A stretch of 64,000 nt of DNA, from positions 62,001 to 126,000 of the forward strand of contig NZ_QKYU01000010.1 in NCBI RefSeq assembly GCF_003253705.1. The letters run 5' to 3'. The notes below the pieces were generated by a model that was not told the origin of the DNA, ran no database searches, and saw nothing but the letters and a program-made list of their open reading frames with translations. The translations under genes were made by a program, and so were the position numbers. Positions 14,695 through 22,150 of the stretch are shown here, in pieces. This DNA is from Humitalea rosea (GTDB lineage: Bacteria > Pseudomonadota > Alphaproteobacteria > Acetobacterales > Acetobacteraceae). Position 1 is the first letter of the stretch. Each line of letters begins with the position of its first letter.

Positions 14695-15489
14695 ATGACG
14701 CAGCCCGCCGCCGACGCCGAAATGGACCGCCTCTGGACAGCGCTGCTGGACCGCGCGGCGGGGGGGCATGCGGCCTTGCCGGAGCATCCGCTCCGCGCGC
14801 TGTTCGCGCCGCTCTTCGCCGCGCCGCGCCAGGCCGGTGGCGCCGTGGTGGTGGGGCGGCTCGCGCAATCCCTCGATGGCCGGATCGCGGCCTGCAATGG
14901 CGCGTCACAATGGATCGGGGGTGCGGGCGACCTGCGCCACACCCATCGCCTGCGCGCGCTCTGCCATGCCGTCGTGGTCGGCGCCGGCACCATCGCCGCG
15001 GATGATCCGCAGCTCACCACGCGGCTGGTGCCGGGTCCGCATCCGCTGCGGGTGGTGCTGGACCCGCGGCGCCGGCTCGCCAGCCACTACCGCATCTTCA
15101 CCGAGGGTCCGCCGACCCTGCTCGTCACCACGACCGAGGGCCCCGACCGGCATGGCCAAGCCGAGGTGCTGCGGCTGCCGGCCGATACCGACGCGCGCTG
15201 CGATGTCGCGGGGCTGATTGCGGCGCTTGCCGCGAGAGGGCTGACCCGCATCTTCGTCGAGGGCGGCGGCGTCACCGTCTCGCGCTTTCTCCGCGCGGGG
15301 TGTCTGGACCGGCTGCACATCACCATCGCGCCCCTGATCCTCGGCTCCGGCCGTCCGGCCTTCGTGCTGCCCGAGGTCACCTGCATTCAGGATGGGCTGC
15401 GCGCGCCCTGGATGGTGCATCCGCTCGGCGACGACATATTGGTGGATATGGCGATCGACGGCGCCCGGCCCTGGAGCAACGCAACATGA
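14695..15489 (+). CDS. RibD C-terminal-type reductase (pyrimidine/pteridine reductase family)
   Basis: A 264-residue dihydrofolate-reductase-fold enzyme of the RibD_C family, without the deaminase domain of housekeeping RibD. SLDG (59-62), GAGTIAADDP (96-105) and FVEGGG (187-192) are the substrate- and NADPH-binding motifs. In riboflavin synthesis this fold reduces the ribosyl group of a 5-amino-uracil; stand-alone versions act on related heterocycles in natural-product pathways. ATG 14695 follows ATATACC and leaves 52 bases after flbY. It begins a chain of five genes with 1-4 base overlaps or very short gaps, so its substrate is probably a pteridine or pyrimidine-derived intermediate handled by the next genes. 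Confidence 0.78.
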   Translation: MTQPAADAEMDRLWTALLDRAAGGHAALPEHPLRALFAPLFAAPRQAGGAVVVGRLAQSLDGRIAACNGASQWIGGAGDLRHTHRLRALCHAVVVGAGTIAADDPQLTTRLVPGPHPLRVVLDPRRRLASHYRIFTEGPPTLLVTTTEGPDRHGQAEVLRLPADTDARCDVAGLIAALAARGLTRIFVEGGGVTVSRFLRAGCLDRLHITIAPLILGSGRPAFVLPEVTCIQDGLRAPWMVHPLGDDILVDMAIDGARPWSNAT

Positions 15490-16466
15490 TCGGCCGCGCC
15501 TTCTGGACCATCGCCGCCGGCCAGGGCGAACTGCGCGAGGAGCGCCTGCCCCCGCGCGCGCCCGACCAGCTCCTGATCCGCACCCTTGCGACCGCGATCT
15601 CGCGCGGCACCGAGCGGCTGGTCTTCTCCGGCCGCGTGCCGGAGACGCAATGGGGCGCCATGGCCTGCCCGCTGATGGCGGGCTGCTTCCCCTTCCCGGT
15701 CAAATACGGCTACGCGGCGGTCGGCGTGGTGGAGGCCGGCCCGGAGGAGATGATCGGTCGCCGTGTGTTCGTGCTGCACCCGCATCAGGACCGTTTTCTC
15801 GCGCCCTCCGCGATGTGCGTGCCCGTGCCCGATGCGGTGCCGGATAGGCGCGCGGTGCTGGCGGCGAACATGGAAACCGCGCTGAACATCATCTGGGATG
15901 CGCGGCCGCTGCCCGGCGAACGCGCGCTGGTGATCGGCGCAGGCGTGGTCGGGCTGCTGGTGGCGCATCTGCTGTCGCGCTTTCCCGGCATGGAGCTGAC
16001 GCTCTGCGACGCCGATCCCTCGCGCGAGGTGATCGCCCGCGCGCTCGGGCTGCGCTTTTGCCTGCCCGAGGCTGCGCCCGGCGATCGCGAGTTGATCGTG
16101 CATGCCTCGGCCAATCCGGAGGGGCTGCGCCTCGCGCTGCGCTCCGCCGGTTTCGAGGCGCGCATCATCGAGGCCTCCTGGTTCGGCGATGCGCTGTGCA
16201 ACCTTCCGCTCGGCGAGGCCTTCCACTCCCGCCGGCTGTCGCTGGTCAGTTCCCAGGTCGGCGCGGTCAGCCCGGCCATGCGCGGCCGGCGCAGCTATGG
16301 CGAGCGTCTGGCCTTGGCCTTGACGCTGCTTGAGGATACGCGCCTGGACGCCCTGCTCGGCGTGCCCACAGCCTTCGCCGATCTGCCGGCGCGGATGGGG
16401 GCGCTGCTCGGGCTGGATGGATCTGTTGCCGCTGCCCCCTGCCCCGTCGTTACCTATGATGCCTGA
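15486..16466 (+). CDS. MDR-family dehydrogenase, BchC/threonine-dehydrogenase-like
   Basis: A 326-residue medium-chain dehydrogenase/reductase. The N-terminal catalytic domain shows ISRGTERLVFSGRVP (38-52), a sequence type shared with bacteriochlorophyllide hydroxyethyl dehydrogenase BchC rather than with zinc alcohol dehydrogenases; the usual catalytic Cys-Gly-x-Asp is absent. The Rossmann motif is GAGVVG at 151-156. It starts with ATGA overlap on the reductase stop and is followed 15 bases later by the PTPS-like gene. Probably oxidises or reduces a hydroxyl on the pathway's small-molecule substrate with NAD(P)(H). A role in bacteriochlorophyll synthesis is unlikely because no other bch gene is nearby. 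Confidence 0.72.
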   Translation: MIGRAFWTIAAGQGELREERLPPRAPDQLLIRTLATAISRGTERLVFSGRVPETQWGAMACPLMAGCFPFPVKYGYAAVGVVEAGPEEMIGRRVFVLHPHQDRFLAPSAMCVPVPDAVPDRRAVLAANMETALNIIWDARPLPGERALVIGAGVVGLLVAHLLSRFPGMELTLCDADPSREVIARALGLRFCLPEAAPGDRELIVHASANPEGLRLALRSAGFEARIIEASWFGDALCNLPLGEAFHSRRLSLVSSQVGAVSPAMRGRRSYGERLALALTLLEDTRLDALLGVPTAFADLPARMGALLGLDGSVAAAPCPVVTYDA

Positions 16467-16481
16467 AGGATCGCGCCTGCC

Positions 16482-16895
16482 ATGTTCAGCCTGACCGTCG
16501 CCGACCACGTCATGATCGCGCATTCCTTCCGCGGCGAGGAATTCGGCCCGGCGCAGCGCGTGCATGGCGCGACCTTCGTGGTCGAGGCCGAGTTCCGCGC
16601 CAAGGCGCTGGACCAGGCGAACCTGCTGGTGGACATCGCCGCCGCGCGGGTGGAACTGCGCAAGATCCTCGACGGCTTCGACTACACCAACCTCGATACC
16701 CTGCCGGTCTTCGCCGGGCAGAACACCACGACCGAATATCTGTGCTTCCACATCCACGCCGAGCTTTGCGCGGCGCTGAAGCAGGGCAAGCTCGGCGCGG
16801 GCGGCCACAAGGTCGAGGCGCTGAAGGTGCTGCTGCGCGAAAGCCCGCTCGCCTGGGCCGCGTACGAGGCGCCCATCGACGCCGCCCTCGCCTGA
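16482..16895 (+). CDS. 6-pyruvoyl-tetrahydropterin synthase / QueD-like protein with altered active site
   Basis: A 137-residue T-fold protein of the PTPS/QueD family. Recognisable landmarks are IAHSF with zinc-type His14, RVHGATF where the first His of the HxH zinc pair is kept (His28) but the second is Ala30, FDYTNLD in place of the catalytic DH motif (His to Tyr), NTTTEY in place of NPTSE, and LLRESP with the substrate-binding Glu. The catalytic Cys normally just before HxH is also missing (position of Ala24). It is unlikely to carry out ordinary PTPS or QueD chemistry, and may bind a pterin or catalyse a changed reaction. It overlaps the next gene by one base. Confidence 0.7.
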   Translation: MFSLTVADHVMIAHSFRGEEFGPAQRVHGATFVVEAEFRAKALDQANLLVDIAAARVELRKILDGFDYTNLDTLPVFAGQNTTTEYLCFHIHAELCAALKQGKLGAGGHKVEALKVLLRESPLAWAAYEAPIDAALA

Positions 16896-17941
16896 TGCCC
16901 GCGCCGATCGCGCTGCTGGTCCCGGGGCCGTTCGACGCCATCAGCGGCGGCTATGTCTATGACCGACGCATCGTGGCGGGGCTGCGGGCGGATGGGCGGG
17001 AGGTCGCGGTGATCGAACTCGCCGGCCACCATCCGCTGCCCGATGCCGCCGCCGAGGATTTTGCCCGCGCGACGCTGGCGGCGATCCCGGCCGGCACGCG
17101 GATCGTCGTGGATGGGCTCGGCCTGCCGGCCTTCGCCCCCGTGGTGGAGGATCTGGTGGCGCGTGGCGCCGTCGGGCTGATCCATCACCCGACGGCGCTG
17201 GAGACCGGCTTCGCCGAGGCCGACCGCGCCGCGCTGAAGGCGCGCGAGCAGGCGATCTTCCCGCGTCTCGCGGGTCTCATCACCACCTCCCGCCTCACCG
17301 CCAGCCGCCTGCCGGATGAATTCGCGGTGGACCCGGCGCGGGTGACGATCGTCGAGCCTGGCACCGACCCTGCCCCACGCAGCACCGGCAGTGGCGGGCC
17401 TGGCTGTGCCATCCTCTCCATCGGCACGCTGGTGCCGCGCAAGGGCCATGACGTGCTGCTGCGCGCCCTGGGCCGGCTGACCGATCTCGACTGGTCCCTG
17501 ACCATCGTCGGCGCCCCGCGCGATACCGCCCATGCCGATGGGCTGGTGGCGCTGGCCGAGGAGCTTGGGCTGACCAAGCGCGTCACCTTCGCCGGCGAAG
17601 TGGATGAGGTCGGCATCGAGGCGCTGTATGCCAAGGCCGATCTCTTCGCGCTGGCCACCCATTGGGAAGGCTATGGCATGGTCGCGGCCGAGGCGCTGGC
17701 GCGCGGCCTGCCGCTGGCGATCACGGCGGGCGGTGCCATCGCCGATCTGGCGACGCAGGGCACCGCCATCGTGGCCCCGGTCGGGGATGCCGACAGCCTG
17801 TCACGCGGGATGCGGCGGGCGATCCTGGACCCGCTGCTGCGCGCCAACATGGCCAAGGCCGCCTGGACCGCCGGACAGGGGCTGCCGCGCTGGTCGGATC
17901 GCGCAGCCCTCTTCGCCGCCGCATTGGATGCCGCAGCATGA
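16895..17941 (+). CDS. Glycosyltransferase family 4 in the pteridine-like cluster
   Basis: A 348-residue GT-B glycosyltransferase. The first domain begins LLVPGPFDAISGGYVYD with the GG acceptor loop; the second begins near residue 175 with LSIGTLVPRKGHDVLL; HWEGYGMVAAEALARGLP near 257 contains the EX7E motif. It starts in a TGATG junction and ends in an ATGA junction with the methyltransferase, so it belongs to the five-gene unit and not to the distant polysaccharide locus. The likely product is a glycoside of the small molecule made by the upstream enzymes. Pterin glycosides are known in cyanobacteria and some other bacteria, which makes a pterin acceptor plausible but unproven. Confidence 0.75.
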   Translation: MPAPIALLVPGPFDAISGGYVYDRRIVAGLRADGREVAVIELAGHHPLPDAAAEDFARATLAAIPAGTRIVVDGLGLPAFAPVVEDLVARGAVGLIHHPTALETGFAEADRAALKAREQAIFPRLAGLITTSRLTASRLPDEFAVDPARVTIVEPGTDPAPRSTGSGGPGCAILSIGTLVPRKGHDVLLRALGRLTDLDWSLTIVGAPRDTAHADGLVALAEELGLTKRVTFAGEVDEVGIEALYAKADLFALATHWEGYGMVAAEALARGLPLAITAGGAIADLATQGTAIVAPVGDADSLSRGMRRAILDPLLRANMAKAAWTAGQGLPRWSDRAALFAAALDAAA

Positions 17942-18822
17942 GCGAGAGTTTCGATGCCGAATGGCTCGACCAGCGCGAGGGCTTCGATGCCGTCTCGCGC
18001 GACATCGAATTGGCGGAACTGCTCGCGCAGGCGCTGCCGGCCCGGCCACGCCTGCTGGACCTCGGCGCCGGCACCGGCAGCCTGTTCCGCTGGCTGGCGC
18101 CGATCATCCATCGTGCCCAGGCCTGGACCCTGGTCGATGCCGATCCACGGCTGATCGAGGAGGCCTTCGAGGCCATCGCCGGCTTCGGCGCCGAGATCGG
18201 GCTGACCATCACCTTCCCCAGCCGGCGCACTTTGTTGCTGCATGCGCCGGGCGGCGCCTGGCGGGTGGAGGGGCTGGTCGCCGACCTGCGCGGCAGCCCG
18301 GCCAACCTGCCGCTGGTCAATGCCGATGCGGTGGTGAATTCAGCGCTTTGCGATCTGGTGTCGGAGCCCTGGGTGGCCCGCATGGCCGCCGCCATCGCCG
18401 CGCGAAAAATCCCCTTCTATGCCGCGCTGAACGTGACCGGGCGCGACGTCTTCTCGCCACCCTGGCCAGGCGATGCCGAGGTCGCCCGCGGCTTCCGCCG
18501 CGACCAGGGGCGGGATAAGGGCTTCGGCGGCCGCGCGCTGGGCGCGGCAGCCCCCACGGCGCTGGCCGCGGCCTTTACGGCGCATGGCTACAGCGTCCGG
18601 ACCGCACCCTCCGACTGGCACATCCCGCGCCAGGCGCCGGGAATGGCGGCTGATCTCGCCGAGGGCCATGCCGGCGCGGCGGCGCGCAGGGAACGCCGCG
18701 CGCAGAAGCGCATCCAGGCCTGGTACGAGGCCCGCACACGGCAGGCGATGGAGGGCCGCCTCTCCGTGCGCGTCGGCCATCGCGACGTGCTGGCGCTGCC
18801 GCCGGGCCACGCCACGGCTTGA
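17938..18822 (+). CDS. Class I SAM-dependent methyltransferase in the pteridine-like cluster
   Basis: A 294-residue methyltransferase. LDLGAGTGS at 40-48 is motif I for S-adenosylmethionine binding, TLVDADPRL near 65-73 carries the acidic ribose-binding residue, and DAVVNSALCDLVS near 125-137 corresponds to motif IV. The C-terminal ~70 residues are basic and helical, which is unusual and may help to bind an acidic substrate. It is the last gene of the five-gene operon (ATGA overlap at its start) and is followed by a 59-base gap before otnK. It should O- or N-methylate the pathway product; the acceptor is not known. Confidence 0.75.
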   Translation: MSESFDAEWLDQREGFDAVSRDIELAELLAQALPARPRLLDLGAGTGSLFRWLAPIIHRAQAWTLVDADPRLIEEAFEAIAGFGAEIGLTITFPSRRTLLLHAPGGAWRVEGLVADLRGSPANLPLVNADAVVNSALCDLVSEPWVARMAAAIAARKIPFYAALNVTGRDVFSPPWPGDAEVARGFRRDQGRDKGFGGRALGAAAPTALAAAFTAHGYSVRTAPSDWHIPRQAPGMAADLAEGHAGAAARRERRAQKRIQAWYEARTRQAMEGRLSVRVGHRDVLALPPGHATA

Positions 18823-18881: not shown

Positions 18882-20132
18882 ATGCCGCTTCTGGGCTGCA
18901 TCGCCGATGATTTCACCGGGGCCACCGACCTCGCCGCCATGCTGGTGCAGAACGGCATGGCGACGGTGCAGACCATCGGCGTGCCGGATGGCGAGATGCC
19001 CGAGGCCGATGCCATCGTCGTCGCGCTGAAGTCGCGCACCATCCCCGCCGCGGATGCCGTCGCGCAGTCGCTCGCGGCGGCCGAGGCGCTGCTGGCGGCC
19101 GGCGCGACGCAACTGCTGTTCAAGGTATGCAGCACCTTCGACAGCACCGCCGAGGGCAATATCGGCCCGGTCGCGGATGCGCTGATGAAGCGGCTCGGCG
19201 CCTCCATCGCGCTGGTCTGCCCGGCCTTCCCGACCAATGCCCGCACGGTGTTCCAGGGTCACCTGTTCGTCGGCGACAAGCTGTTGAACGAGAGCGGCAT
19301 GCAGCACCACCCGCTGACGCCGATGACCGATGCCAACCTCGTGCGCGTGATGGCGGCGCAGACGCCGGGCGGGGTTGGGCTCATCCCCTTCGCCATCGTG
19401 GACCAGGGGGCGGCCGCGATCCGCACCGCCGTCGCCGGGTTGAGCGACCGCGACCGGCGCTATGCCATCGTCGATGCCGTCACCGACACGCATCTGATGG
19501 CGATGGGTGAGGCCGCCGCGCGGCATCCGCTGCTGGTCGGCGGCTCGGGCATCGCCATGGGCCTGCCGGAGAATTTTCGCCGCGCCGGGGTGCTGCCAAT
19601 CCGCGCGGATGCGGCGGCGCTACCGCCGGCACAGGGGCTTTTCGCGGTGCTCGCGGGGTCCTGCTCACGCGCGACGCTGGCGCAGATCGGCTATGCGCGC
19701 GACCAGGTGCCGACCCTGGAACTGGATGCGCTGGCGACGCCGGATGCGGCGGCGCTGACCGCGCAGGCGCTGGCGTGGATGGAGGGGAAGCTGTCGGCGT
19801 CACGGCCCGTGGTGATCGCCGCCTCGGCGCCGCCCGAACAGGTTGCCGCGTTGCAGCAGAAACTCGGCCGCGATGTGGCGGGCGCGCTGGTCGAGGATGC
19901 CATGGCCCGCATCGCGCGCGCCTTGGTCGCGGCCGGCGTCGGGCGGTTGGTGGTCGCGGGCGGCGAGACCTCGGGTGCCGTGGTGCAGGCGCTGGATGTG
20001 CGGAGCCTGCGGATCGGGCCGACCATCGATCCCGGCGTGCCCTGGACCTATGCCGAACCGGGGGGGCTGCATCTGGCGCTCAAGAGCGGCAATTTCGGCG
20101 GGCGCGATTTCTTCCTCAAGGCCTTCGCATGA
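18882..20132 (+). CDS. otnK: 3-oxo-tetronate kinase
   Basis: A 416-residue kinase of the four-carbon acid sugar kinase (DUF1537) family. The N-terminal IADDFTGATDLAAML contains the conserved DDxTGA motif, and VVAGGETSGAVVQAL near 365 is the C-terminal ATP-binding signature. It phosphorylates 3-oxo-tetronates at C4. The next gene, overlapping by four bases, encodes the class II aldolase-type decarboxylase that uses this product, so the OtnK/OtnC assignment is well supported. A strong GGGGGAGAG ribosome site precedes the ATG. No isomerase or tetronate dehydrogenase is adjacent. Confidence 0.88.
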   Translation: MPLLGCIADDFTGATDLAAMLVQNGMATVQTIGVPDGEMPEADAIVVALKSRTIPAADAVAQSLAAAEALLAAGATQLLFKVCSTFDSTAEGNIGPVADALMKRLGASIALVCPAFPTNARTVFQGHLFVGDKLLNESGMQHHPLTPMTDANLVRVMAAQTPGGVGLIPFAIVDQGAAAIRTAVAGLSDRDRRYAIVDAVTDTHLMAMGEAAARHPLLVGGSGIAMGLPENFRRAGVLPIRADAAALPPAQGLFAVLAGSCSRATLAQIGYARDQVPTLELDALATPDAAALTAQALAWMEGKLSASRPVVIAASAPPEQVAALQQKLGRDVAGALVEDAMARIARALVAAGVGRLVVAGGETSGAVVQALDVRSLRIGPTIDPGVPWTYAEPGGLHLALKSGNFGGRDFFLKAFA

Positions 20133-20764
20133 GCAAGGAAGCCGACCTGCGCGAGAGCCTCTGCCGTCTCGGCGCCAGCCTGTTCGCGCGCGGCTACTCG
20201 GTCGGCAGCGCCGGCAACATCAGCGTGCGGCTGGATGACGGCTACCTGATGACGCCGACCAACAGCAGCCTCGGCAGCCTCGATCCCGCGAGCCTGTCCA
20301 AGCTCGCGCCGGACTGGTCGCATGTCTCGGGCGACAAGCCGACCAAGGAGGTCTTCCTGCATCGCGCCGTGCTGACGGCGCGGGCGGAGGCGGGGGCCGT
20401 GGTGCATCTGCATTCCACGCATGCGACCGCGATCTCCTGCCTCGCGTCCCCCGGCGACACCGCGCCGATCCCGCCGCTGACGCCCTATTTCGTCATGCGC
20501 GTCGGGCGCAGCCTGCCCGTCGTGCGCTACTGGCGCCCGGGCGATGCGCGGATGGAGCCCGAGATCCATGCCGCCGCGCTGACGGCGCGCGCCATGCTGC
20601 TGGCAAACCACGGCCCCGTCGTATCCGGCAAGAGCCTGATCGATGCGGTCTATGCCGCCGAGGAATTGGAGGAGTCGGCGCGCCTCGCGCTGATGCTGCG
20701 CGGCATGGGCGCGCGCGGCCTGACCGAGGCCGAGGTCGAGGATCTGCTCGGCACCTTCGGCTGA
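20129..20764 (+). CDS. otnC: 3-oxo-tetronate 4-phosphate decarboxylase (class II aldolase family)
   Basis: A 211-residue class II aldolase/adducin-family enzyme. GSAGNISVR (26-34) binds phosphate; the zinc ligands are His93 and His95 in VHLHSTHAT and His161 in LLANHGPV; Glu74 is the catalytic acid. It converts 3-oxo-tetronate 4-phosphate to dihydroxyacetone phosphate and CO2, completing the OtnK step. ATG 20129 overlaps the otnK stop. Its own stop abuts the convergent acetyltransferase stop with no spacer. Confidence 0.88.
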   Translation: MSKEADLRESLCRLGASLFARGYSVGSAGNISVRLDDGYLMTPTNSSLGSLDPASLSKLAPDWSHVSGDKPTKEVFLHRAVLTARAEAGAVVHLHSTHATAISCLASPGDTAPIPPLTPYFVMRVGRSLPVVRYWRPGDARMEPEIHAAALTARAMLLANHGPVVSGKSLIDAVYAAEELEESARLALMLRGMGARGLTEAEVEDLLGTFG

Positions 20765-21310: not shown

Positions 21311-22150
21311 TCAGGCCATCGGCTCGTCGGTGGGCTCAGGCGCCGGGGCGGGCGCGGGCGTCGGAGCAGCCGCGGCGGCGGCAGCCTTGCGGGCGGCGCG
21401 GGTCTGCGCGCCCTTCCGTGCGGCTTCGCTGCGCGCGCTGGGGGCGGCGGGCTTGGGCGCGGCGACGGGGGCAGCAGGGGCGGCCTTCGGCGCGCGGCGC
21501 GTCGCGGGCTTGGCGGCAACGGCGGCCTTGCGCGGCGCGGCCTTGGGGGCAGCAGCCTTGGGGGCAGCGGCCTTGCGGGGCGCGGCCTTGGGGGCAGCGG
21601 CGGCAGCGCGACGGGCGGGCGCCTTGGCGGCAGCGGCCTTCTTCGGTGCGGCCTTGGCGGCAGCGGCCTTCTTCGGCGCGGCCTTGGCGGCAGCGGCCTT
21701 CTTCGGCGCGGCCTTGGCGGCAACGGCCTTCTTCGGCGCGGCCTTGGCGGCGGCGGCCTTCTTCGGCGCTGCCTTGGCGGCAACGGCCTTCTTCGGCGCG
21801 GCCTTGGCGGCAACGGCCTTCTTCGGCGCGGCCTTGGCGGCGACGGCCTTCTTCGGCGCGGCCTTGGCGGCGACGGCCCGCTTCGGCGCGGCCTTGGCGG
21901 CAACGGCCCGCTTCGGTGCGGCCTTGGCGGCAACGGCCTTCTTCGGAGCAGCCTTGGCGGCGGCCTTCTTCGGCGCGGCCTTGGGGGCGGCGGCAGCGGC
22001 CTTCTTCGGCGCGGCCTTCGGTGCCGTCACCTTGCGCGAGGTCGCGGCCTTGCGCGCGCCACCGCCACGACGCGTGGTGCTGGACATCGCCATCGCGCAA
22101 GCGCGGCTCGGGGTTTCAGTCGCGGTCGGGTCGATCATGTCGTCGTTCAC
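21311..22150 (-). CDS. Histone H1-like Lys/Ala/Pro repeat DNA-binding protein
   Basis: A 279-residue basic, low-complexity protein. A 45-residue head ([18 protein letters not shown]) leads into decapeptide repeats of the form [10 protein letters not shown] from about residue 45 to 215, then an acidic-Pro tail ([14 protein letters not shown]). Composition matches bacterial histone-H1-like proteins and the AlgP/AlgR3 type, which compact DNA or affect transcription. The GTG start at 22150 is preceded by AAGGAG nine bases upstream; ATG 22138 is a possible alternative. The repeats are encoded by an 11-copy 30-base tandem array, so length is likely to vary between strains. The other reading frames are open only because of the repeat. 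Confidence 0.8.
21631..21960. repeat. Eleven tandem 30-bp units inside the H1-like gene
   Basis: Eleven consecutive 30-base units, each close to CAACGGCCTTCTTCGGCGCG followed by GCCTTGGCGG. Differences are mostly at positions 2-4 (CAGC, CAAC, CGGC, CGAC) and in the TTCTTC/CCGCTTC segment, which changes Lys-Lys to Lys-Arg. Less regular copies continue on both sides. Near-identity suggests frequent slippage or recombination. Confidence 0.92.

Follow-up and report, generated by a model that had tools for sequence, protein, structure and literature searches.

Five genes lie in tandem on the forward strand of the window, the 64,000-nucleotide stretch of Humitalea rosea DNA analyzed here; their start codons were picked by inspection. 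The first (14695..15489) encodes a 264-residue reductase in which RibD_C (PF01872, E 6.6e-42) is the sole Pfam family, with no deaminase domain. A 4-base ATGA overlap joins it to the gene of a BchC-like, apparently zinc-less MDR dehydrogenase of 326 residues (15486..16466), which is followed after a 15-base gap by the gene of a 137-residue T-fold protein of the PTPS-IV type (16482..16895; PF01242, E 3.8e-21). The latter shares one base with the gene of a 348-residue GT4-family glycosyltransferase (16895..17941; PF00534, Glycos_transf_1, E 2.2e-30), and a further 4-base overlap leads into that of a 294-residue class I SAM-dependent methyltransferase (17938..18822). The coordinates agree with the initial annotation, which had described a five-gene run with 1–4-base overlaps and one 15-base gap, and Pfam matches reproduce its RibD_C, PTPS, and GT4 assignments.

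The cluster was followed through 119 distinct loci in which the MDR gene is present; 107 of them have room downstream. The MDR, PTPS, GT4, and methyltransferase genes stand in this order on one strand in 95 of these 107; eight others have GT4 in place but lack the methyltransferase, so that a GT4 orthologue occupies the same position in 103/107, and the methyltransferase was not found in order in 12/107. RibD_C occurs near the cluster in 98 of the 119 loci, in every case (98/98) at most 1.9 kb from a core gene. Among the 60 loci with room outside the close relatives of the window ("distant" loci), PTPS was found in 58, GT4 in 57, methyltransferase in 55, RibD_C in 44, CDP-alcohol phosphatidyltransferase in 37, GCHII in 30, and a creatininase-family hydrolase in 24; the absence of RibD_C from 16 of them, like that of an in-order methyltransferase from 12/107, counts against the pathway model proposed below. 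Two streamlined genomes, L080 and L081 (1.4 and 1.6 Mb), hold all seven genes together. The same order and strand in different phyla, and a partial set in Haloarcula, put the association beyond chance. The window holds one representative of a cluster that is deeply conserved in many bacteria and, in part, in haloarchaea, and its retention across families and phyla supports the earlier suggestion that the five genes form one system. Since the gene set is stable in proteobacteria, actinobacteria, partly haloarchaea, and the two streamlined genomes, the product is probably of general use, for instance as a cofactor, a pigment, or part of the membrane, and not an antibiotic specific to single strains.

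By profile comparison, the best solved relatives of the RibD_C protein are 6p8c and 2azn, 2,5-diamino-6-ribosylamino-4(3H)-pyrimidinone 5'-phosphate reductase, and we propose a role as reductase of a GTP-derived diaminopyrimidine ribosyl phosphate. The riboflavin RibD model TIGR00326 gave 111.8 bits against a cut-off of 156. The riboflavin pathway was rejected as the home of this protein, because the genome encodes a separate ribD with deaminase and reductase domains, adjoining riboflavin synthase and ribBA. Archaeal riboflavin synthesis begins with GCHIII, the ArfB deformylase, and the ArfC reductase. The cluster likewise combines a GTP cyclohydrolase, a creatininase-family hydrolase, and a deaminase-less RibD_C protein, but it adds PTPS, MDR, GT4, and methyltransferase, and in the window genome it coexists with the separate ribD, riboflavin synthase, and ribBA. 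The match of the ArfB model to the cluster creatininase (one representative, L138) was weak (E 8.4e-6, 25.7 bits, cut-off 180); the MftE model was closer, also below its cut-off.

The MDR protein reaches no Pfam cut-off. Its closest curated model, and the best in NCBIfam, is BchC of bacteriochlorophyll synthesis, as initially annotated, but the score of 46.7 bits is far under the cut-off of 291; no bacteriochlorophyll genes were recognized among the recurring neighbors listed. The predicted structure has the MDR fold (pLDDT 95.3). Zinc-dependent MDR alcohol dehydrogenases bind the catalytic zinc through a Cys and the GHE motif; GHE occurs in 0/26 aligned sequences, which have no invariant Cys either, and this identity was therefore rejected. 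Polyol dehydrogenases are among the nearest solved chains, tied with other MDRs, and we counted the tie against the proposal that the enzyme oxidizes a secondary alcohol of a side chain. The GT4 and methyltransferase genes form a single open reading frame in six Halomonas/Vreelandella loci. The Pfam Methyltransf matches of the methyltransferase are all sub-threshold; the assignment made at first reading is supported by its DLGxGTG SAM motif (DLGAGTG in the window) and by a confidently predicted class I fold (pLDDT 96.4) with matches to small-molecule methyltransferases.

The window PTPS matches the solved protein SCO6650 (PDB 3d7j) over nearly its whole length (E 3.4e-59). It carries FGPAQ, and FGPAQ or FGPAR followed by HGA is present in 110/113 ORFs, the three exceptions being FGLAQ in L107, FGPSQ in L129, and a fragment in L148. 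The FGPAQ signature defines PTPS-IV, a subfamily of COG0720, for which a neighborhood with PF00925 (GTP_cyclohydro2) and PF01872 (RibD_C) was reported in 2017 (PMC5445326). The same neighborhood is seen here. RibD_C is adjacent in the window, and GTP cyclohydrolase, which the initial annotation had anticipated as a recurring partner, appears as GCHII near 30 of the 60 distant loci and as GCHIII in two Haloarcula records; GCHII is near none of the 33 near loci with room, the window included. The passages on PTPS-IV in that report name the two neighbors and no product, and in them the ordered set with MDR, GT4, and methyltransferase is absent, as are the creatininase, the CDP-alcohol transferase, the fusions, and the exchange for GCHIII (PMC5445326). 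No account of the complete cluster came to light in the literature, but the earlier statement that no such pathway is known has to be qualified, as the association of PTPS-IV with GCHII and RibD_C had already been noted.

If the PTPS were the QueD of queuosine synthesis, the other cluster genes would be bystanders. The genome of the window and three other cluster genomes encode QueC and have the cluster PTPS as their only PTPS, which we counted against the pathway model, and in L048 the cluster is immediately preceded, on its own strand, by queF, queG, queC, and a gene for a Vut_1-type transporter. However, the Cys, third zinc His, and catalytic His of QueD are replaced in 25/25 aligned PTPS-IV sequences: Ala stands at the Cys position and HGH has become HGA, so that the CxxxHGH motif is lost, while E85 and E120 are kept in 25/25. 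The HGH of solved relatives was seen in the profile matches. The window copy has, as it happens, the catalytic Asp of QueD. The NCBIfam QueD model TIGR03367 scored 42 bits against a cut-off of 89, and QueC is not above its cut-off in 10 of the 24 cluster genomes examined. Where a second PTPS occurs in these genomes, it is always alongside QueC (10/10), which argues that PTPS-IV has another role, and we regard the queuosine reading as very improbable. A function in coenzyme F420 synthesis is hardly credible. A passage in PMC5041015 places PTPS-IV there on the basis of unpublished work, and CofG is encoded in 5 of the 24 chosen cluster genomes, but it is below the cut-off in the other 19, that of the window among them. 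The counter-proposal that each gene comes from an unrelated established pathway is thus contradicted for riboflavin, F420, and QueD.

In the window genome, the GCHII and creatininase genes lie away from the cluster, and both are unlinked in all 33 near loci, which counts against the pathway model. Its RibBA copy has no zinc cysteines; the RIBA-type GCHII therefore probably also serves as the riboflavin enzyme here, and the GCHII linkage elsewhere may in consequence partly reflect riboflavin. Among the named loci, the Streptomyces cluster GCHIIs have Met (8/8) where the 23 others have Tyr. The Met-type GCHII of S. coelicolor, SCO6655, releases a formylated product, for which a deformylase would be needed. 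GTP cyclohydrolase I was not recognized among the listed neighbor clusters, which were judged from one representative sequence each and are partly annotated. It is encoded elsewhere in 22 of the 24 cluster genomes, and the only two in which it was not found are L080 and L081; FolE2 or folate uptake could explain this as well as a separate route to the pterin ring, considered below, would. In the two Haloarcula records, GCHIII, which is unrelated to GCHII (PF05165, E 6.6e-81 in the first cluster), stands beside MDR, PTPS, and methyltransferase, and its occurrence in the place of GCHII points to the same GTP-derived precursor. Other features of the Haloarcula clusters count against the pathway model: the PTPS is distant (45 and 48 bits) and retains an HxH motif, the GT4 is divergent and weak (32–34 bits), and genes for RibD_C, the creatininase, and the flippase-like protein were not seen.

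Here, we propose that these genes form the linked core of a pathway leading from GTP to a glycosylated, methylated pterin-like (2-amino-4-oxo-pteridine) compound, with a probability of about 0.6. As gene association suggests, a GTP cyclohydrolase (GCHII in bacteria, GCHIII in Haloarcula) would open GTP to a diaminopyrimidine ribosyl phosphate, and the creatininase-family hydrolase would deformylate the product of those cyclohydrolases that do not remove the formyl group themselves. Judging from its family, the deaminase-less RibD_C protein would reduce the ribosyl chain to ribityl with the 2-amino group kept. The zinc-less MDR might then oxidize a chain hydroxyl (C2') to a ketone, with which the 5-amino group could condense to a 7,8-dihydroneopterin-phosphate-like ring; reduction by RibD_C and re-oxidation by the MDR would thereby constitute a redox detour around the rearrangement catalyzed by GTP cyclohydrolase I. 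PTPS-IV may bind the pterin and perform or assist non-QueD chemistry on it. Finally, the compound would receive a sugar from GT4 and be methylated by the methyltransferase, as their families and natural fusion suggest; the sugar- and methyl-bearing pteridine of the initial annotation was likewise deduced from enzyme families. The entry to folate and biopterin runs via GTP cyclohydrolase I and PTPS, and the cluster too has a PTPS-fold protein that probably acts on a GTP-derived pterin, but its sequence predicts none of the zinc/Cys chemistry. Cyanopterin and limipterin are bacterial pterin glycosides and make this product class plausible; the known ones start from tetrahydrobiopterin-type pterins.

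Alternatively, the reduced diaminopyrimidine ribityl phosphate may stay a pyrimidine, or react with a different carbonyl to form a ring of the 8-ribityl lumazine or flavin type, before being glycosylated and methylated, with PTPS-IV merely binding the 2-amino-4-oxo-pyrimidine part. GCHII and RibD_C are riboflavin-type enzymes, PTPS-IV has lost residues that QueD uses on the side chain of the pterin, and the MDR may have some other role, all of which would suit such a heterocycle. We nevertheless consider it unlikely: no lumazine, riboflavin, or DHBP synthase was recognized among the listed neighbor clusters, and the PTPS folds known to date act on pterins. A lipid connection is suggested by the CDP-alcohol transferase, found in 41/119 loci with the full catalytic motif in 41/41. 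It is head-to-head with the MDR gene in Streptomyces, Halomonas-type, and Acidobacteria-MAG loci and near the cluster in Microbacterium, Thiodictyon, and Haloarcula; a flippase-like LPG_synthase_TM protein is encoded in 25/119 loci. The product may be lipid-linked in lineages with the transferase and, in bacteria, the flippase-like protein. That the cluster, through CDP-alcohol transferase, GT4, methyltransferase, and flippase-like protein, chiefly builds a glycolipid whose polar head group is the GTP-derived ring in every lineage appears improbable, since the transferase subtype is absent from 16 of the 24 cluster genomes, including that of the window, and therefore cannot be a universal end step. 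An extension of the pterin pathway, which we put forward as quite unlikely in its entirety, joins a new ring route through GCHII or GCHIII, RibD_C, and MDR to a glycosylated, methylated cofactor, made by PTPS-IV, GT4, and the methyltransferase, that is phospholipid-attached in some lineages and would found a novel group of membrane pterins. The CDP-alcohol transferase would attach it in Halomonas-type bacteria, Streptomyces, some rhizobia, and haloarchaea, and the flippase-like protein would move the lipid-attached pterin in the bacteria having the transferase.

The redox route, if true, would be an additional way of making pterins. A concrete candidate pathway is now at hand for PTPS-IV, until now an orphan subfamily, and for SCO6650, which is solved but uncharacterized; its product can be looked for by gene deletion combined with mass spectrometry in strains that are tractable. 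In the annotated records read, the cluster enzymes go by "6-carboxytetrahydropterin synthase" and "zinc-binding alcohol dehydrogenase", although the aligned bacterial members lack the residues on which either name rests.

All five genes lie on the forward strand of contig C10 of the 4.97 Mb genome of H. rosea: the RibD_C reductase (14695-15489; PF01872), the MDR dehydrogenase (15486-16466; nearest model BchC, below its cut-off), the PTPS protein (16482-16895; PF01242), the GT4 glycosyltransferase (16895-17941; group 1 glycosyltransferase, E 2.2e-30), and the methyltransferase (17938-18822; SAM motif and predicted fold). The tight spacing described in the initial annotation agrees with these coordinates: neighbouring genes overlap by 4, 1, and 4 bases, apart from a single 15-base gap. 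Flagellar genes lie upstream of the operon (a Rod-binding domain and a subthreshold FlgN match). Directly 3' of it, at 18882-20764, are otnK and otnC (3-oxo-tetronate kinase and decarboxylase), which were rejected as part of the cluster because they recur only in loci related to the window (Acetobacteraceae/Rhodospirillales records and one Proteobacteria MAG, L135). A search for sigma-70-type promoters gave 0 matches (0.5 in shuffles), and the terminator-like matches (3 versus 1.4 +/- 1.4 in shuffles) were uninformative. Further downstream, 21311-22150 on the reverse strand holds a low-complexity Lys/Ala/Pro ORF of 279 aa with KAAPKKA units, histone H1-like by eye.

Eighteen of 60 relatives (E <= 1.7e-96; next match, 1.2e-8) and 36 of 289 class genomes (E <= 2.4e-46; next, 2.7e-10) carry an MDR orthologue, and a PTPS subfamily profile matched 27 of 398 phylum genomes (E <= 1.9e-54; next, 1.9e-15), the own genome being counted each time. 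The relative and class surveys gave 51 orthologue-bearing genomes besides the own genome, from which 40 neighbourhoods were drawn; together with the best 80 of 591 confirmed relatives and the window, these made 121 loci, or 119 distinct loci after the duplicates L089 and L093 were left out. The best-80 set is rich in the window's kin, and to lessen this bias, loci were grouped as near or distant according to how identical their MDR is to that of the window, the distant ones being below 60%. Neighbouring ORFs were filtered by codon-position GC, which could discard real genes; recurrent antisense ORFs were removed in this way as noise of GC-rich DNA. The core MDR-PTPS-GT4-methyltransferase was found in order on one strand in 95 of the 107 loci with room (>3.6 kb downstream of the MDR gene), and this recurrence rules out a chance operon. 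The remaining loci with room lacked the methyltransferase (8) or had MDR-PTPS only (1) or MDR only (3), and the complete core was also present in 5 of 12 loci with <=3.6 kb. Among the 119 loci, RibD_C precedes the core on its own strand in 62, follows it on the other strand in 36, and was not seen in 21; wherever present (98/98), it was <=1.9 kb from a core gene. In two Candidatus Contendobacter loci (L134 and L145), MDR, CDP-alcohol transferase, and sulfatase-fold genes stand together, and no PTPS, GT4, or methyltransferase gene was seen in the stretches; this arrangement may be a split or reduced version of the cluster.

Additional partners recur in the distant loci. Among the 60 with room, PTPS was found in 58, GT4 in 57, methyltransferase in 55, RibD_C in 44, CDP-alcohol transferase in 37, GCHII in 30, the creatininase family in 24, LPG_synthase_TM in 23, MdoH-like in 16, FkbM in 15, and sulfatase-fold in 8. 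The 33 near loci with room had PTPS, GT4, and RibD_C in 33 and methyltransferase in 29, and the other seven partners in none. Partner representatives were verified by Pfam (GTP_cyclohydro2, Creatininase, CDP-OH_P_transf, LPG_synthase_TM, and others), and the catalytic motif was complete in all 41 CDP-alcohol transferases from the 119 loci. The MdoH-like GT2 (18 of the 119 loci), FkbM methyltransferase (17), sulfatase-fold protein (11), cytochrome b561 (10), and YceI (10) are accessories of limited lineages. In the own genome, a cluster-type GCHII (354.8 bits) and a creatininase (287.6 bits) are present away from the operon. In L080 and L081 (26 and 28% GC), the genes for creatininase, MDR, PTPS, GT4, methyltransferase, RibD_C, and GCHII are all adjacent; the hosts, G196 and G294, have AT-rich streamlined genomes of 1.6 and 1.4 Mb. 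Within the best 80 of 591 relatives, all eight Streptomyces cluster GCHIIs carry Met where 23 others carry Tyr; one Actinomadura copy has His at this position, and one fragment was unreadable. The Met-type GCHII of S. coelicolor, SCO6655, reportedly releases a formylated pyrimidine.

In both Haloarcula records read, of three, CDP-alcohol transferase, GTP cyclohydrolase, MDR, PTPS, and methyltransferase genes are consecutive, and the cyclohydrolase is GCHIII (PF05165, E 6.6e-81 in the first record), a family unrelated to GCHII. The occupation of the same place by two unrelated cyclohydrolases points to a GTP-derived diaminopyrimidine as the likely starting material. In Haloarcula, the PTPS is only distantly related (48 and 45 bits), with an HxH motif kept and FGPAQ missing, and the GT4 shows only weak similarity; genes for RibD_C, a creatininase, or a flippase-like protein were not seen in these stretches.

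The families of the individual enzymes were analyzed by profile and structure searches and in alignments of chosen subsets (A1, A2, A3, A6, and A7, with 26, 21, 25, 34, and 24 sequences). In the Pfam search, the RibD_C protein matched PF01872 (E 6.6e-42), and no deaminase domain was found. Among solved structures, its orthologue profile best matched RibD-type chains, 2,5-diamino-6-ribosylamino-4(3H)-pyrimidinone 5'-phosphate reductases among them (6p8c, E 8.3e-45; 2azn, E 4.2e-40). The MDR protein scored 46.7 bits against its nearest model, BchC, whose cut-off is 291. Since the GHE motif was absent from all 26 aligned MDR sequences and no Cys was invariant, it is probably a zinc-less dehydrogenase. 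Among the solved chains nearest to the MDR model are dehydrogenases of L-idonate, xylitol, arabinitol, and sorbitol (Z 29.9-30.7); because other MDRs reach an overlapping range (Z 28.6-30.5), this lends slight support to the ribityl oxidation proposed below. No BchC structure was in the VIA-align match list, which is no evidence against BchC. Motif and predicted fold place the methyltransferase among the class I SAM enzymes, and its fold matches pointed to no substrate. GT4 and methyltransferase are fused into a single open reading frame in six Halomonas/Vreelandella loci, which argues that the two work in one pathway.

Based on these associations, we propose that the cluster would make a glycosylated, methylated pterin-like compound from GTP. 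GTP would be processed by the cyclohydrolase and then by RibD_C, a sequence supported by gene association, and the creatininase-family hydrolase may be the deformylase of the formylated pyrimidine. Because RibD_C has no deaminase domain, the 2-amino group should be retained and the ring should be of the pterin type, not the flavin type; this would fit a PTPS-fold partner with its glutamates kept. The MDR may oxidise C2' of the ribityl chain to a ketone. On chemical grounds, this ketone would be within reach of the 5-amino group to form a six-membered ring, and the closed ring would share its carbon skeleton with 7,8-dihydroneopterin phosphate. GT4 and the methyltransferase would decorate the product last. 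Several observations speak against this proposal: the cyclohydrolase and hydrolase are away from the cluster in the window's kin, RibD_C is absent in 16 of the 60 distant loci with room, and the CDP-alcohol transferase subtype was not found in the own genome. The probable riboflavin role of GCHII in the own genome and the possible one of RibD_C in G196, both described below, weigh against it too.

The PTPS protein matches PF01242 (E 3.8e-21) and might have been QueD of the queuosine pathway. It scored 42 bits against the QueD model (cut-off, 89), and its residues argue against this identity. The members were compared with a QueD sequence and with solved relatives. Both glutamates (E85 and E120) and two of the zinc histidines were invariant across the 25 aligned members. 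Ala occupies what we take to be the QueD Cys and third zinc histidine positions in all 25 (HGA for HGH), the presumed catalytic histidine is replaced with Tyr, Phe, or Leu in all 25, and the presumed catalytic Asp is present in only five, including the window copy. Among solved structures, that of the uncharacterised SCO6650 (3d7j) is closest (E 3.4e-59). In 24 genomes chosen from cluster-positive ones, which served for all the gene surveys below, a second PTPS was found in 10, all of which have QueC. The cluster PTPS is the sole PTPS in the other 14; as QueC is below the cut-off in 10 of these, PTPS-IV is retained independently of queuosine. In the four QueC-positive single-PTPS genomes, the own genome among them, the cluster PTPS may contribute to queuosine. 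One of these four has queF, queG, queC, and a Vut_1-type transporter gene immediately 5' of the operon and in the same orientation (L048:10240-13759).

The window PTPS carries FGPAQ, the signature of PTPS-IV, whose neighbourhood holds PF00925 and PF01872 (561 sequences) according to PMC5445326; in PMC5041015, the subfamily is assigned to F420 on unpublished grounds. F420 was rejected as the general role because CofG reached the cut-off in only five of the 24 genomes, and not in the own genome. Riboflavin synthesis was likewise rejected as the role of the operon RibD_C: apart from the operon, the own genome encodes a deaminase-bearing RibD, with riboflavin synthase and ribBA next in line, so the operon copy is dispensable for riboflavin. 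In G196, the cluster RibD_C is the sole one found and might serve riboflavin. The GCHII domain of the own RibBA (L084 and L178, contig C3) matches PF00925 without the cysteine zinc motif, and its GCHII activity has probably been lost. The separate RIBA-type GCHII (L083, contig C22) keeps the motif; the cluster-type GCHII is thus probably also the riboflavin enzyme in this genome. GTP cyclohydrolase I was found in 22 of the 24 genomes, with no match in G196 and G294, the streamlined genomes with the seven-gene set; as FolE2 or folate uptake could explain this equally well, it is only a hint at pterin supply.

The orphan status of the PTPS-IV subfamily and the association with GCHII and RibD_C are already published. 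Our literature search, in which subscription papers are poorly covered, found no description of the ordered cluster with its MDR, GT4, methyltransferase, creatininase, and CDP-alcohol transferase partners, nor of the GT4-methyltransferase fusions and the GCHIII exchange. Judged from sequence, the cluster appears to be a GTP-derived heterocycle pathway built from known families.

The cluster also occurs on plasmids, which were not counted within the 119 loci. Nineteen annotated plasmid records had an MDR match at E <= 1e-40, and seven were inspected, the two Haloarcula records described above among them. In an unannotated Arthrobacter plasmid record, MDR, PTPS, and GT4 were found and the methyltransferase was not. 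The cluster is present on plasmid records of Streptomyces, Microbacterium, Thiodictyon, and Methylosinus. In a Microbacterium air isolate (L173, NZ_CP027930.2), it lies on a 59-kb mobilizable plasmid near fluoride transporter genes and includes the CDP-alcohol transferase, a flippase-like gene, and RibD.
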